Shown: positions 14,290 through 20,560 of the stretch, piece after piece
How positions within the stretch are numbered: position 1 is the stretch's first letter
Layout: each line of letters begins with the position of its first letter
NCBI GenBank assembly: GCA_028282325.1
Contig: JANQID010000030.1
Coordinates: forward strand, 1-36,775
Origin: Chloroflexaceae bacterium
GTDB lineage: Bacteria; Chloroflexota; Chloroflexia; Chloroflexales; Chloroflexaceae
Reading direction: 5' to 3'
DNA: 36,775 nt
The notes under the pieces: model-generated
Databases searched by the model: none
What the model was told of the DNA's origin: nothing
What the model saw: only the letters and a program-made list of their open reading frames with translations
Translations under genes and position numbers: made by a program

Positions 14290-15396
14290 ATGCCATTGAA
14301 GAACGATAGTTTAGCGGAGATCCTTTCGCAACGAGGAGTGTCACGACGAGATTTTCTCAAGTTCTGTGGAGCAATGGCCGGCGTGCTCGCTTTGCCTCAA
14401 CGCTATACAACACGGATTGCCGAGGCGCTGCAAACTGCACAACGTCCGCCTCTGGTCTGGTTGGAATACCAGGATTGCGCCGGAAATACCGAGTCGTTCC
14501 TGCGCGCCAGCAAGCCAACCGCCGCCGAGATCGTGTTGGATGTATTGTCCGTTGATTACCACGAGACAATTATGTCCGCCGCCGGGCATCAAGCCGAGGA
14601 TGCGCTGGATGAGACGATCGCCGCGCACAAAGGCGAGTACCTGGTGGTTGTCGAAGGTTCAATTCCCACGAAAGACGGCGGCATCTATTGCACCGTCGGC
14701 GGATACGCGGCTGTGGATCGTTTGAAGCAAGTCGCCGGAGGCGCGGCGGCGATCATCGCCGTCGGCACCTGCGCAACCTACGGCGGGTTGCCCGCCGCCG
14801 CCCCCAACCCGACCGGAGCAGCCAGCGTTTCTGATATTGTCAAAGGCGTACCGATCATCAACCTTCCCGGTTGTCCGATGAATGTGCAAAATCTGACAGC
14901 AGTCATCGTCCATTACCTCACCTTTGGGGCCTGGCCGGCCACTGACCAGTTTGGACGACCGTTGTTCGCCTATGGCTCGCGCATCCACGACGACTGCGAA
15001 CGCCGCGCGCACTTCGATGCCGGTCAATTCGTTGAGGATTGGGGCGACGAAGCGCACCGCAAAGGCTGGTGTCTCTACAAGATGGGCTGCAAAGGCCCGG
15101 AGGCGTTCCACAACTGCCCGATTGTGCGCTGGAACGATGGCACAAGCTGGCCGATCGGCGCGGGGCACGGATGTGTCGGCTGCTCGGAGCCTTACTTCTG
15201 GGATAGTATGTCTCCCTTCTATGAGCGTTTGCCGAATGTGCAGTTGCTAGGCGTAGAGGCCGAGGTAGATAAGATTGGCGCGGGCATAGTCGGAGCGGTC
15301 GCTGGTACATTCGCGATCCACGGCGTGATCAGTGCCGCACGTGCGAAAGCCCAGCCCATTGAGCGGCATGAGGTTAGCGCGCCTGAGGAGGAGTAA
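14290..15396 (+). CDS. hyaA: [NiFe]-hydrogenase small subunit, group 1 type
   Basis: This 368-residue iron-sulfur subunit passes electrons from the nickel-iron site toward cytochrome b. It has a twin-arginine motif SRRDFLKF (18-25), so the folded dimer should be exported by Tat, and a C-terminal hydrophobic helix (about 330-350) for membrane anchoring. Medial and distal cluster ligands look normal: H233, C236, C261, C267, C276, C295 and C298. The proximal cluster has C63, C161 and C195, but the expected second Cys of the N-terminal CxxC is Asn66 (CAGN). The extra cysteines of O2-tolerant six-Cys enzymes are absent; G166 sits where one would be. An AGGAGGGG Shine-Dalgarno sequence precedes the ATG, and the large-subunit gene starts 7 bp after the stop. 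The hyaA name is by role. Confidence 0.95.
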   Translation: MPLKNDSLAEILSQRGVSRRDFLKFCGAMAGVLALPQRYTTRIAEALQTAQRPPLVWLEYQDCAGNTESFLRASKPTAAEIVLDVLSVDYHETIMSAAGHQAEDALDETIAAHKGEYLVVVEGSIPTKDGGIYCTVGGYAAVDRLKQVAGGAAAIIAVGTCATYGGLPAAAPNPTGAASVSDIVKGVPIINLPGCPMNVQNLTAVIVHYLTFGAWPATDQFGRPLFAYGSRIHDDCERRAHFDAGQFVEDWGDEAHRKGWCLYKMGCKGPEAFHNCPIVRWNDGTSWPIGAGHGCVGCSEPYFWDSMSPFYERLPNVQLLGVEAEVDKIGAGIVGAVAGTFAIHGVISAARAKAQPIERHEVSAPEEE

Positions 15397-15402
15397 GGAC
15401 AT

Positions 15403-17139
15403 ATGGCGAAAATAGCAATTGACCCGATTACCCGCATTGAGGGGCATCTCCGCATCGAAGCGCAAGTCGAAGGCGGCGCAGTCACCAACGCATGGAGTTC
15501 GTCAACCATGTGGCGTGGCATCGAGTTGATCCTCCAAAACCGCGACCCGCGCGACGCCTGGTATCTTACCCAGCGCATCTGCGGTGTTTGTACGACTGTC
15601 CACGCGCTCGCCTCGGTGCGCGCCGTCGAGAACGCCCTGGCTATTGAGATTCCCCTGAACGCCGTGCTGATGCGCAACCTGATCGAGGCGGCGCAGTATA
15701 TTCAGGATCACGTCATCCACTTTTACCACCTGCACGCTCTGGACTGGGTGGACATAGTCAGCGCCTTGGACGCCGATCCGCAAGCAACATCGCAACTGGC
15801 CGAGTCGATCTCCGACTGGCCGTTGAGCAGTGCCAGCTATTTTGCCGGTGTGCAGGCGAAGATCAAAGCGTTCGTCGAGAGCGGGCAACTCGGCCCCTTC
15901 GGCAATGCCTACTGGGGACATCCGGCCTACAAACTGCCGCCCGAAGCCAATCTGATGGCCGTGGCTCACTATCTCGAGGCGCTGGATTGGCAACGCAATT
16001 TCATCCGCATTCACGCGGTGTTGGGCAGCAAAAACCCGCACTTGCAAACGTATGTTGTCGGAGGCATGACGCTCGCCATCGACCCCAACGGCCAGTCGGT
16101 GTTGAATGCCGAGCGCATCGCGTTGCTGAAAGATCTGTTCGCCCGCGGACGGGAGTTTGTCGAGAAGGTCTACATCCCCGACTTGCTCGCAGTCGCGTCG
16201 TTTTACAAAGACTGGGCGGCGATTGGCGGCGGCGTCGGCAATTATTTGACCTACGGCGACTTCCCAATCGGCGTCGGCGATCCGAGCAGCAAGCCGGACT
16301 TGTTCTTCTTTCCGCGCGGCATCATCTTAAACAAAGATCTGAGCATGGTTCACCCGGTCGATCACGCGAAGATCACCGAATATGTCACTCACTCGTGGTA
16401 TGAATACGCCGTCGGCGATGCGGCATCATTGCATCCCTGGGAAGGCGAAACCAGCCCGAACTACACCGGCCCCACGCCGCCCTACAAGTTCCTTAACACC
16501 GGCGAGAACGACAAATATAGTTGGCTCAAAGCGCCGCGTTATGAAAACCAGCCGATGGAGGTCGGCCCGCTTTCCCGTATGCTGGTCGCCTATGCCTCGC
16601 CCGACGCACCCTCCCACGCCTCGGTGAAGGAAAAGGTCGATACGGCGCTCGGTGCGCTGGGGGTCGGGCCGGAAGCGCTCTTCTCGACGCTTGGACGCAC
16701 CGCCGCTCGCGGTATCGAGACCTGGGTTGTCGCTGAGGCGGCGATGGGCTGGCTCGATCAGTTGACCGACAACATCAAGGCCGGCGATCTGCGCATCCAT
16801 GCCAACGAGAAATGGGATCCCCAGCAGTGGCCGAGAAGCGCCCAGGGCGTCGGTATGACCGATGCGCCGCGTGGGGCGCTAGGGCATTGGGTAACGATCG
16901 AAGATGGCAAGATCCTAAACTACCAGTGCGTGGTTCCCAGCACATGGAATGGCGGCCCGCGCGATGCTGAGGCTAATAATGGCCCCTACGAGTCCGCATT
17001 GATCGGCACGCCTATCGCCGATGAAGAGAAGCCGCTGGAGATCTTGCGCACAGTCCACTCCTTCGATCCCTGCATGGCTTGCGCGGCGCATATCTTTGAC
17101 GCTGAAGGCCGCGAGGTCATCTCAGTCAAGGTGCAGTAG
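15403..17139 (+). CDS. hyaB: [NiFe]-hydrogenase large subunit, group 1 type
   Basis: This 578-residue catalytic subunit splits H2 at a Ni-Fe(CN)2CO centre. The L1 motif RICGVCTTVH gives C60 and C63, and the L2 motif DPCMACAAH gives C557 and C560. The 15 residues after H563 form the C-terminal peptide normally removed by the maturation protease once nickel is inserted; that protease is encoded two genes downstream. It has no signal peptide and would be co-exported with the Tat-tagged small subunit. GAGGAG lies upstream of the ATG. All four metal-binding cysteines are intact, so the unusual feature of this enzyme is confined to the small subunit. The finer hydrogenase subgroup needs a phylogeny. 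Confidence 0.97.
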   Translation: MAKIAIDPITRIEGHLRIEAQVEGGAVTNAWSSSTMWRGIELILQNRDPRDAWYLTQRICGVCTTVHALASVRAVENALAIEIPLNAVLMRNLIEAAQYIQDHVIHFYHLHALDWVDIVSALDADPQATSQLAESISDWPLSSASYFAGVQAKIKAFVESGQLGPFGNAYWGHPAYKLPPEANLMAVAHYLEALDWQRNFIRIHAVLGSKNPHLQTYVVGGMTLAIDPNGQSVLNAERIALLKDLFARGREFVEKVYIPDLLAVASFYKDWAAIGGGVGNYLTYGDFPIGVGDPSSKPDLFFFPRGIILNKDLSMVHPVDHAKITEYVTHSWYEYAVGDAASLHPWEGETSPNYTGPTPPYKFLNTGENDKYSWLKAPRYENQPMEVGPLSRMLVAYASPDAPSHASVKEKVDTALGALGVGPEALFSTLGRTAARGIETWVVAEAAMGWLDQLTDNIKAGDLRIHANEKWDPQQWPRSAQGVGMTDAPRGALGHWVTIEDGKILNYQCVVPSTWNGGPRDAEANNGPYESALIGTPIADEEKPLEILRTVHSFDPCMACAAHIFDAEGREVISVKVQ

Positions 17140-17152
17140 GGAGGGTACGCTT

Positions 17153-17857
17153 ATGGCAGGGCACATGCAAACCGGTGAAGCGGGTCGCATCTATGTGTGG
17201 GAGGTTCCGGTCAGGCTCACGCATTGGGTCAACGTGTTCTCAATCGTGGTTCTTTCCTTCACCGGTTATTACATCGGTAATCCTTACATTCAGGTGAGCG
17301 AGCGAGAGGTGTTCGGTTCCTACTTTATGGGGAACATGCGCTTCTTGCATATGCTCTTCGCATTTATCTTCGTCGCGAGTCTGTTGCTGCGCACGTACTG
17401 GGCGTTTTTCGGCGGTAACCAATGGGCCAGTTGGAAGGCGCTGGTGCCTTTCATCACGCCTGAAGGGCGCGGCAAGCTGAGAATGATGCTCGAATATTAC
17501 TTCTTCGTGCGTCGCGAACCGCCCACCGTGTTGGGGCATAATGCCCTGGCCGGCTTCACGTATGGGTTCATCGTTCTCTTCTACTTCATCCAGACCTTCA
17601 CCGGCTTCGCATTGTATGGGCAGGCTAATCCGGGCGGTTTCTGGTGGACGACGACAGGTTGGATCTTTCTCTTCATCAGCAATCAAATGATCCGTTTGAT
17701 CCACCATCTGCTGATGTGGCTGATCATTGCCTTCGCGCTCCATCATATCTATAGCGCATTTCTAGTAGACGCCGAAGAGGCGAACGGCTTGATGAGCAGC
17801 ATCTTCAGCGGTTGGAAGTTTGTTTGTCCCAACGACAAAAAGTCCAAGGACGAATAA
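17153..17857 (+). CDS. hyaC: Hydrogenase cytochrome b subunit
   Basis: This 234-residue membrane protein of the HyaC/HupC cytochrome b561 type takes electrons from the small subunit and gives them to quinone. Four hydrophobic helices are visible, near residues 25-45, 65-85, 135-160 and 180-205. Candidate haem ligands are H24 (LTHWVN), a His at the start of helix 2 (FLHMLF) and several in helix 4 (IHHLLMW, LHHIYSAF). The start at 17153 follows GGGAGGG and is 13 bp after the large-subunit stop; an in-frame upstream extension inside that gene is not credible. A 70-bp gap with a strong hairpin separates it from the protease gene. Confidence 0.93.
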   Translation: MAGHMQTGEAGRIYVWEVPVRLTHWVNVFSIVVLSFTGYYIGNPYIQVSEREVFGSYFMGNMRFLHMLFAFIFVASLLLRTYWAFFGGNQWASWKALVPFITPEGRGKLRMMLEYYFFVRREPPTVLGHNALAGFTYGFIVLFYFIQTFTGFALYGQANPGGFWWTTTGWIFLFISNQMIRLIHHLLMWLIIAFALHHIYSAFLVDAEEANGLMSSIFSGWKFVCPNDKKSKDE

Positions 17858-17927: not shown

Positions 17928-18419
17928 ATGTCACGCATTTTAGTGTTGGGTATTGGCAACATCTTGCTCCAGGATGAAGGCGTCGGCGTACGCGTGGTGG
18001 AATATCTCCTGGCCCGTTACGCATTTGCCGACAATGTGCAGATGCTCGACGGTGGCACGATCGGACTGGAGTTGCTGTTTTACATCGAAGGTGTTGATAA
18101 GCTGATCGTCATCGATGCCGTAGACGCCGCGCAGCCCCCCGGCGGCATTGTGTGCCTGGTTGATGACGAAATTCCGGCTCTGCTTGGCAAGAAGCTATCG
18201 CCGCACCAGGTCGGCCTGGCGGACTTGCTGGTCGTCGCTCGTATGCGCGACATTATCCCCTCGCAGGTCGTCTTGATCGGTGTGCAGCCCGCTATGATCG
18301 ACACCGGGCTGGAGTTGTCGCCGATCATCAGTGCGAAAGTGCCGGAGATGGCGCAGATGATTCTTGACCAGATCCGCGCATGGGGATGCACTCCCGCTCA
18401 CATAGCGCTCGACGATTGA
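17928..18419 (+). CDS. hyaD: Hydrogenase maturation protease
   Basis: This 163-residue HyaD/HupD/HybD-type endopeptidase trims the large-subunit C-terminus after nickel insertion. The N-terminal strand [15 protein letters not shown] carries E17, and D64 (VIDAVDA) and H93 (SPHQVG) complete the usual nickel-sensing set. It is cytoplasmic. The length is normal. It follows the cytochrome gene in the same direction and is 4 bp before hypA, so the maturation genes form one block. Confidence 0.95.
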
Positions 18420-18423
18420 CTGC

Positions 18424-18807
18424 ATGCACGAACTCCCCGTGACCGAAAGCATTCTGAAGCTGACCCTGGAATCCGCTCGCCAGGCCGGCGAGCGCCGCGT
18501 GCTGGCGATTGATCTGGTGATTGGCGGTCTTAGCAGCATCGTGGATGATTCGGTGCAGTTCTATTTTGATATACTGAGCAAAGATACGCTGGCCGAAGGC
18601 GCGCAATTGCGCTTTCGACGCGAGCCGGGCATGGTGATCTGCTGGGATTGCGCCTGGCAATTCCAGGCGAGTGCCCCCCTGGCGGCTGTGTGTCCAGAAT
18701 GCGGAAGTGCGCGGCTGCGCGTCGTCGGCGGTATGGATTTCTACGTAGAAAGTATTGAGGTGGCCGATGAAGATTCCTGTAGTGAAACAGATTCTGAGCG
18801 CCAATGA
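18424..18807 (+). CDS. hypA: Hydrogenase nickel chaperone HypA
   Basis: This 127-residue nickel-delivery protein has the N-terminal MHE needed for nickel binding (H2) and a zinc site with two pairs: C73 and C76 (CWDC), C90 and C93 (CPEC). The tail after residue 115 is acidic and a little longer than usual because the reading frame runs 41 bp into hypB. It works with HypB to load nickel into the large-subunit precursor. The overlap implies translational coupling with hypB. Confidence 0.95.
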
Positions 18808-19417
18808 CGCTATCGCCGGCGAGAATCAAGCGCTCTTTGATGCAGCGGGCGTGACTGTCATCAACCTTATGGCCTCGCCCGGCGCCGGCAAGACGAGCCT
18901 CATTTTGGCGACGGCTGCGCACCTGCCCGCGAGCGTGCGTCCCGGTGTGATCGAAGGCGACCTGGCATCGAGCATCGATGCGGATACCATCGCCGCGCGC
19001 GGCATTCCCGTGGTGCAGATCAACACGGGCGGCAACTGCCACCTCGACGCGCCTATGGTACGCTCGGCGCTGCCGCATCTGCCCCTGGAAGGCATCGACC
19101 TGCTCTTTATCGAGAATGTGGGTAACCTGATTTGCCCGGCCAATTTCACGCTTGGCGCCCATGCAAACGCGGTGATCGCCAGCACCCCTGAAGGCCACGA
19201 CAAGCCCTACAAATATCCGGGTATGTTCGCCAGCGCCAACGCGGTTGTGCTCAACAAAGCCGACTTGATCGATGTCTTCGAGTTCGATGTGGACTACTTC
19301 CGTCGGGGAATTGCGATGGTCAACGCCGATGCGCCGCTTTTCATCGTGTCGGCGCGCACGGGAGAAGGCGTTGAAGATTGGATCGCCTGGCTCCAACAGA
19401 CGCTGGAGCGTGCATAA
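18767..19417 (+). CDS. hypB: Hydrogenase maturation GTPase HypB
   Basis: This 216-residue SIMIBI-class GTPase drives nickel insertion. The P-loop ASPGAGKT is followed by the switch region [11 protein letters not shown], the metal-binding [20 protein letters not shown] and the guanine-specificity motif NKAD. It lacks the His-rich nickel-storage stretch found after the N-terminus in some HypB proteins. The ATG at 18767 was chosen over a TTG at 18755 because it follows TTGAGGTGG at a good distance and starts [14 protein letters not shown] as in homologues. hypC, hypD, hypE and hypF are not in the window and must be elsewhere if the enzyme matures. Confidence 0.96.
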
Positions 19418-19440
19418 CCGAGTCGAGCGAGACTATCAGA

Positions 19441-19475
19441 ACACAACAACGGCGCACATCATAGCGATGCGCGCC
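19441..19475 (-). terminator. Terminator of the tRNA-Leu/tRNA-Gln unit
   Basis: On the minus strand GGCGCGCATC (19475-19466) pairs with GATGTGCGCC (19460-19451) over 10 bp (one G-U), loop of 5, followed by the T-rich GTTGTTGTGT (19450-19441). It lies 11 bp after the tRNA-Gln CCA end. There is no T-run on the plus side, so hypB transcripts need not end here. Confidence 0.7.
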
Positions 19476-19485
19476 GCAGTACATC

Positions 19486-19559
19486 TGGCTGGGGGACAGG
19501 GACTCGAACCCCAACCACCTGATCCAGAGTCAGGCGTTCTACCGTTAAACTATCCCCCA
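19486..19559 (-). tRNA. tRNA-Gln (CUG)
   Basis: Acceptor TGGGGGA (19559-19553) pairs with TCCCCCA (19496-19490), then discriminator G and an encoded CCA (19488-19486). The anticodon arm CCTGA-CTCTGGA-TCAGG gives anticodon CTG, reading CAG codons. The T-arm has GGTTCGAGTCC. It is the second gene of a two-tRNA transcript. Confidence 0.95.
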
Positions 19560-19575
19560 CTACACAACGTACGGT

Positions 19576-19662
<87 letters not shown>

Positions 19663-19700
19663 AAAGGCAAAAACAGGCCATAAATCTGGCAACGCTGGAT

Positions 19701-19729
19701 ATGATACTATGCCACGTGCGGCTTGTCAA
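19701..19729 (-). promoter_or_regulatory. Promoter of the tRNA-Leu/tRNA-Gln unit
   Basis: On the minus strand a perfect TTGACA (19729-19724), 17-bp spacer and TATCAT (19706-19701). It is placed about 38 bp upstream of tRNA-Leu and is divergent from the membrane-protein promoter at 19755. Confidence 0.75.
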
Positions 19730-19754
19730 ATACTCAGACGGGCCGGAGAGGCTA

Positions 19755-19763
19755 TGCTATAAT
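19755..19763 (+). promoter_or_regulatory. Extended -10 promoter of the DUF624-like gene
   Basis: TGC-TATAAT at 19755-19763 is a consensus extended -10; no good -35 is placed correctly, as is common for this class. The predicted RNA start is near 19770, giving a leader of about 35 nt. Confidence 0.6.
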
Positions 19764-19804
19764 GACCCATATTCCACGGTGTAAAGTTAAGGAACAGTGG
19801 GGAT

Positions 19805-20560
19805 ATGACACGCGCATTTCAGGCGCTCTGGCTGACCACGAAAGATTTGCTCGATGAGTTCCTCGTATTGATGGTCTGCAACGGGATCTGGTCGGTCATC
19901 AGTTTGCCGCTTATCTTGCTGGCGCTGTTTCTAGGAGTAAACGGCTCCATAGCCCTCGCGTTGGGAACTCTGCTGCTATCAGTGCTGCCGATGGCCCCGG
20001 CGACTGCCGGCCTCTACTATATGCTGAATCGGCTCACCGAAGGGTATGCCATTAAGATCAGCGATCTGTTCAGCGGTATGCGCCGTTATGCGATTCCGGC
20101 ATGGAAGAACTTCGGCTTCTGGATGCTCGGCTTGATCGTCATTCTGATCAACCTCCAATTTTATAACGCCGTGACGAATGTCTTCACCGCCATTCTGGTG
20201 TTGCTGTGGTTCTATGCGTTGCTGGTCTGGCTATCGCTGTTGATCTATCTCTTCCCGCTCTTGATGCTTCAGTCCAACGCCAGCTTGCGGTTAACGGCGC
20301 GCAACGTTTTCGTGATGACGCTGGGACGCCCGTTCTTCACCGTGGTTACGATGATGCTGATGTCGATTGTGGTGGCGATTAACTATGTGTTGCCGTTTCT
20401 GGCGCCGATTGTGACGGTGGTGTTCCTGGCGCTGTGGAGTATGCGTGCCACCCGTATGCTGGTCGCTGAAAGTGAAGCGCGCCGTACAGTAGAGCAACCG
20501 GCCACGCCGCCGCCGAAAGTCGAGCAGGAAGGCCGTCGCCGGCAGGCTCGTTCGAAATAG
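19805..20560 (+). CDS. DUF624/YesL-like integral membrane protein
   Basis: This 251-residue protein has five or six hydrophobic helices between residues 20 and 215 and a basic, proline-rich cytoplasmic tail. The order of segments, with a short amphipathic N-terminus, a helical hairpin and the LNRLTEGYAIKISDLFSGMRRY stretch between helices 2 and 3, recalls the YesL/DUF624 family often found beside sugar-uptake genes. Here no transporter is adjacent, so no substrate is implied. The Shine-Dalgarno sequence is weak (GTGGGGAT before the ATG). hisF follows after 42 bp and may be co-transcribed. Confidence 0.7.
   Translation: MTRAFQALWLTTKDLLDEFLVLMVCNGIWSVISLPLILLALFLGVNGSIALALGTLLLSVLPMAPATAGLYYMLNRLTEGYAIKISDLFSGMRRYAIPAWKNFGFWMLGLIVILINLQFYNAVTNVFTAILVLLWFYALLVWLSLLIYLFPLLMLQSNASLRLTARNVFVMTLGRPFFTVVTMMLMSIVVAINYVLPFLAPIVTVVFLALWSMRATRMLVAESEARRTVEQPATPPPKVEQEGRRRQARSK

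Follow-up and report, generated by a model that had tools for sequence, protein, structure and literature searches.

In the locus described here, the small subunit of a [NiFe]-hydrogenase carries an asparagine at a position where a cysteine normally binds the proximal iron-sulfur cluster. The hydrogenase genes lie in a window of 36,775 nucleotides, the whole stretch of Chloroflexaceae DNA that was analysed, and their features are listed in Table 1 together with those of selected relatives. Ligands were assigned by aligning the small subunit of the window to C. necator HoxK and A. macleodii HynS. In the translation (WLEYQDC63-A-G-N66-TESFLR, with A64 encoded by GCC and G65 by GGA), the second Cys of the proximal CxxC motif is replaced by N66, and the proximal cluster is left with three Cys plus Asn66 as the fourth position, as the original prediction had stated. 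The distal and medial ligands are all standard for group 1, the medial set being of the [3Fe-4S] type. The protein also features a TAT signal and a hydrophobic stretch at its C-terminal end, which is likely a membrane anchor.

Table 1. Features of the hydrogenase locus in the window and in-frame TGA codons in the large subunits of relatives
Feature	Position	Strand	Basis or remark
[NiFe]-hydrogenase small subunit, 368 aa	14290..15396	+	TIGR00391 472.5 bits, TIGR01409 TAT, PF01058, PF14720
C63, first proximal-cluster ligand	14476..14478	+	TGC; alignment to HoxK/HynS
N66, at position of second proximal-cluster Cys	14485..14487	+	AAT; alignment; same position in HucS (Asn) and HofK (Asp)
C161, third proximal-cluster ligand	14770..14772	+	Alignment
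C195, fourth proximal-cluster ligand	14872..14874	+	Alignment
Distal (H233, C236, C261, C267) and medial (C276, P288, C295, C298) cluster positions	14986..15183	+	Alignment
[NiFe]-hydrogenase large subunit	15403..17139	+	PF00374 781 bits
b-type cytochrome subunit	17153..17857	+	TIGR02125 161.5 bits, PF01292
HyaD/HupD-type maturation endopeptidase	17928..18419	+	TIGR00140 169 bits
HypA nickel metallochaperone	18424..18807	+	TIGR00100 92.9 bits
HypB nickel insertion GTPase	18755..19417	+	TIGR00073 244.6 bits; true start probably within the ORF
UxxU in L1 of relatives	L002 6360-6371; L003 4676-4687; L004 7285-7296; L014 7274-7285; L160 and others		
CxxU in L1 of relatives	L008 7279-7290; L125; L148-L154		Chloroflexota and two Nitrospirota groups

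The hydrogenase operon is complete: genes for cytochrome b, the protease, HypA and HypB are all present. The large subunit contains the L1 motif RIC60GVC63 (TGC at 15580-15582 and TGT at 15589-15591) and the L2 motif SFDPC557MAC560 (codons TGC and TGC); no in-frame TGA occurs at the active-site Cys codons of L1 or L2 in the window, and the enzyme is thus not of the [NiFeSe] type. The ORF of the b-type cytochrome opens at 17021, with the start listed in Table 1 being the likely one. The operon is predicted to encode an exported, quinone-linked uptake hydrogenase. The two ORFs directly 3' of HypB (19272-19784 and 19805-20560, both on the forward strand) do not exhibit any Pfam or NCBIfam match.

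A GTDB genome search provided 80 close relatives, the majority of them members of the Chloroflexota, the Nitrospirota, or the Geobacteraceae and related bacteria, and further relatives were obtained by searching 400 Chloroflexota genomes. The window's small subunit exhibits 60-77% identity to those of the Chloroflexota, Geobacteraceae and Nitrospirota relatives, and its large subunit 65-68% identity to order-level relatives. Among 108 small subunits, the window included, position 66 is Asn in 60, Asp in 44 and Cys in four, the motifs at positions 63-66 being CAGN (56), CTGD (21), CAGD (19), CAGC (4), CCGN (4) and others (4). Close homologues are therefore nearly all Asn or Asp, with Asn in the lead. 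The Chloroflexota rows show Asn throughout, apart from one clade of four with Cys (L010, L032, L034 and L087); these are the only relatives with Cys at this position, and all four are UxxU in L1 (see below). The three residue states require eight changes on the large-subunit tree and 11 on a larger tree, which indicates that Asn and Asp swap easily, and their codons (AAC/AAT and GAC/GAT) are one transition apart. The codon argument made for the window is correct, AAT being two changes from TGT and one from GAT. Two side observations concern the motif itself. In L049, L061, L069, L078, L138 and L143 it reads C-C-G-N, with an extra Cys right after the first proximal Cys and adjoining the Asn, and this extra Cys is possibly an alternative ligand. 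A plasmid-borne small subunit with CAGN (WLELQDCAGNSEALLR) is found in the Campylobacterota (L121, Sulfurimonas paralvinellae plasmid, 1363-2598).

The window's enzyme is very probably an uptake [NiFe] hydrogenase of the group 1f type, exported by TAT and linked to cytochrome b, in which three Cys and Asn66 represent the normal state of the family. It groups with subunits from Geobacteraceae and Chloroflexota whose type the literature assigns to group 1f, contains RICGVC in L1, DPCxxC in L2 and a TAT signal in the small subunit, and has Asn in place of one proximal Cys; the group 1f label is based on the literature and on this similarity to Geobacteraceae and Chloroflexota loci. Two other assignments were tried and rejected. 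Group 1h would be expected to show TSRICGICGDNH in L1, no TAT signal and CDGD, and the window has QRICGVCTTVH, a TAT signal and CAGN. The extra Cys pair of the six-Cys [4Fe-3S] cluster of group 1d (CTCC ... SWGC) is missing, both places being occupied by Gly in the window.

Asn66 itself is an ordinary, published trait of the family and not a lesion. Replacement of a proximal Cys by Asn or Asp has been described for the group 1f hydrogenases of Roseiflexus, Geobacter and Frankia (PMC5364354, 2017). At proximal position 2, Cys is naturally replaced by Asn in N. punctiforme and by Asp in G. metalloreducens, and engineered C81N and C81D variants of the A. macleodii enzyme were active (PMC4070099, 2014). 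The trait has been published for cyanobacterial HupS as well.

The cluster held by these ligands is less easily assigned. Lacking a thiolate at this position, the proximal cluster of the window would be either [3Fe-4S], as in Huc, or [4Fe-4S] with its fourth iron on Asn or solvent, and either type would change the potential and with it the bias of the enzyme toward H2 oxidation. All three clusters of Huc are [3Fe-4S] by cryo-EM density and EPR, and [3Fe-4S] potentials generally lie about 250 mV above those of [4Fe-4S] (PMC10017518). The HucS motif A-C-S-G-N-T (CSGNT) aligns with C-A-G-N of the window, and this shared C-x-G-N motif suggests that the proximal cluster of the window may also be [3Fe-4S]. 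On this analogy a [3Fe-4S] cluster is slightly preferred, although Huc is only distantly related (group 2a) and its medial and distal clusters show ligand changes as well. The nearest structural precedent is Huc, having the same motif and a [3Fe-4S] proximal cluster, and not the Asp of group 1h.

It is tentatively possible, and to be taken seriously, that Asn66 is instead the true fourth ligand of a [4Fe-4S] cluster through its side-chain oxygen or nitrogen, in the manner of the group 1h Asp. Exchanges between Asn and Asp recur among close relatives, and their frequency suggests that both residues do the same job. The Asp at the identical position in HofK goes with a [4Fe-4S] cluster, which counts against [3Fe-4S], as does the report that an isolated small subunit, although its ligands were unusual, retained [4Fe-4S] clusters (PMC4070099). 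The Asn that group 2a enzymes also have at this position has been described as Asn coordination to 4Fe4S (PMC5364354). Against this ligation stands the occurrence of the same motif with [3Fe-4S] in Huc. In addition, Asn, being neutral, ligates Fe poorly.

It is improbable that Asn66 constitutes a distinct new ligand solution of this enzyme that gives oxygen insensitivity. The original prediction had proposed a solution related to, but different from, the Asp found in the oxygen-insensitive enzyme of group 1h, and the position is indeed shared with the C. necator protein (HofK, 5AA5, motif C-D-G-D); the solution, however, is neither new nor isolated, as more family members have Asn here than any other residue and the trait is already on record for group 1f. 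Loci of Geobacteraceae and Nitrospirota carry Asn and Asp too, which means that the residue by itself is no marker of aerobes, and O2 tolerance is not deducible from residue 66. A sequencing error or decaying gene, for which no supporting evidence was found in this analysis, can be set aside given the intact ORF, the presence of the other ligands, the complete operon and the retention of Asn in most relatives, and a miscalled Cys had rightly been thought unlikely, since the 60 homologous Asn residues are encoded by two codons (44 AAC and 16 AAT).

The comparison of large subunits brought up a second feature of the family, which, given that Asn66 is known, is the part that merits specialist attention. 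In 27 of the 80 GTDB loci, both Cys codons of the L1 motif RICGVC are in-frame TGA (RI-TGA-GV-TGA, here UxxU), as they are in L087 from the search of 400 Chloroflexota genomes. The nearest relatives of the window (L002, L004 and L003) belong to this type, the large subunit of the window being 80% identical to that of L002. The positions of the TGAs coincide exactly with the two Cys codons, and no other in-frame TGA precedes the natural stop. This holds across many assemblies obtained independently, among them the complete chromosome of L004 (CP070811.1) and a contig of 2.37 Mb (L160). L2 is DPCxxC in all UxxU loci of this family in which the C-terminus is covered. Among 246 Nitrospirota genomes, 34 have two TGAs and 16 have one TGA in this hydrogenase family; seven of these 16 were read, and all seven are CxxU, with TGA as the second of the two L1 codons. 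They form two groups, which share 67-70% and 51-54% identity with the query. UxxU and CxxU occur in two phyla, Chloroflexota and Nitrospirota. The L1 states require 10 changes on a tree of 141 rows, and the 12-row clade to which the window belongs (support 99) is composed of eight CC, three UU and one CU. A connection between residue 66 and the L1 state was considered and dropped: N and D are each found with both CC and UU, and the four Cys cases, all UU, are a single clade, which leaves the comparison without power.

These patterns make it highly probable that the window's enzyme is the Cys member of a large family that builds its Ni site with one or two selenocysteines in L1 (CxxU/UxxU) and not in L2. 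On the same reading, the second L1 position would be a bridging Ni-Fe ligand, unlike the C-terminal L2 selenocysteine of known [NiFeSe] hydrogenases. Every one of the 34 UxxU genomes in Nitrospirota contains SelA, compared with 105 of the full set of 246 (Fisher p about 7e-15, ignoring relatedness), and so do 15 of the 16 single-TGA genomes; in a separate screen for SelA and tRNA-Sec, all UxxU genomes had SelA and most had a strong tRNA-Sec. Downstream of the second TGA there is a hairpin that resembles a SECIS (CUGCUC-loop-GAGCAG, with variants). Two of its pairs show compensatory changes (UA/AU/GC and GC/CG), and it pairs in 87% of cells as opposed to at most 65% for slid controls. In that register, 10-11 of the 27 sequences break the two middle pairs, and shuffle controls for pair numbers and types were not exceeded. 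Minimum free energy z-scores against synonymous shuffles differed in one sub-window (mean z -1.12 for UU and -0.29 for CC), with longer windows giving no support. Since the z-scores and the pair test are weak, the firmer evidence is provided by TGA placement and by codon choice at the hairpin, where one Thr is ACG in 27/27 UxxU and 25/53 CxxC sequences and one Arg is AGA or CGA in 26/27 UxxU and 1/53 CxxC sequences.

Reassignment of UGA was rejected as a candidate, as several long ORFs in L002 and L014 end at TGA, as for a stop (in L004 none of six did, a number too small to judge by). The genome of the window has SelA and a strong tRNA-Sec (G000:C121:14804-16195 and G000:C21:33314-33406), yet its L1 contains Cys. 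A more distant large subunit (L156, G578:C20:39631-41358) shows RI-TGA-AV-TGA in L1 alongside a small subunit with a normal CTGC; SelA was not found in the G578 genome, and L156 may therefore reflect an incomplete assembly or a decayed gene.

A 2026 review lists selenocysteine in hydrogenase large subunits only as UxxC and [NiFeSe] enzymes only in sulfate reducers and methanogens (PMC13188914). No report of selenocysteine in L1 was found in the open-licence PMC papers to which the search extended. If the L1 TGAs are read as selenocysteine, there are natural Ni-Fe sites in which a selenolate is the bridging ligand and others that hold two selenolates, and selenocysteine Ni-Fe sites extend to Chloroflexota and Nitrospirota, beyond sulfate reducers and methanogens. 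Asn66 adds examples to a known trait that is biochemically little tested, and the natural Asn, Asp and Cys swaps between close relatives offer ready-made comparisons for the cluster type of C-x-G-N proteins.

Among known systems, the window's enzyme is closest to the group 1f hydrogenases of Roseiflexus, Geobacter and Frankia, with which it shares Asn or Asp for one proximal Cys, the TAT signal and the standard medial and distal ligands; nothing in the window's own enzyme is distinct from group 1f, the TGA codons in L1 belonging to many relatives and not to the window. No close group 1f structure is present among the PDB matches to the enzyme. The group 2a enzymes (M. smegmatis Huc, 7uur/8dqv, and cyanobacterial HupS) have Asn at the same proximal position, in Huc as C-x-G-N-[TS], but Huc lacks the distal His and the medial Pro, has another subunit make-up and is distant in sequence. 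The group 1h enzyme of C. necator (HofKG, 5AA5) also has a non-Cys residue at this position, which is Asp and not Asn, has no TAT signal and is likewise distant. The O2-tolerant group 1d enzymes (HoxK and Hyd-1) are the best PDB matches by sequence and have the same other ligands, but surround a [4Fe-3S] proximal cluster with six Cys where the window has three.
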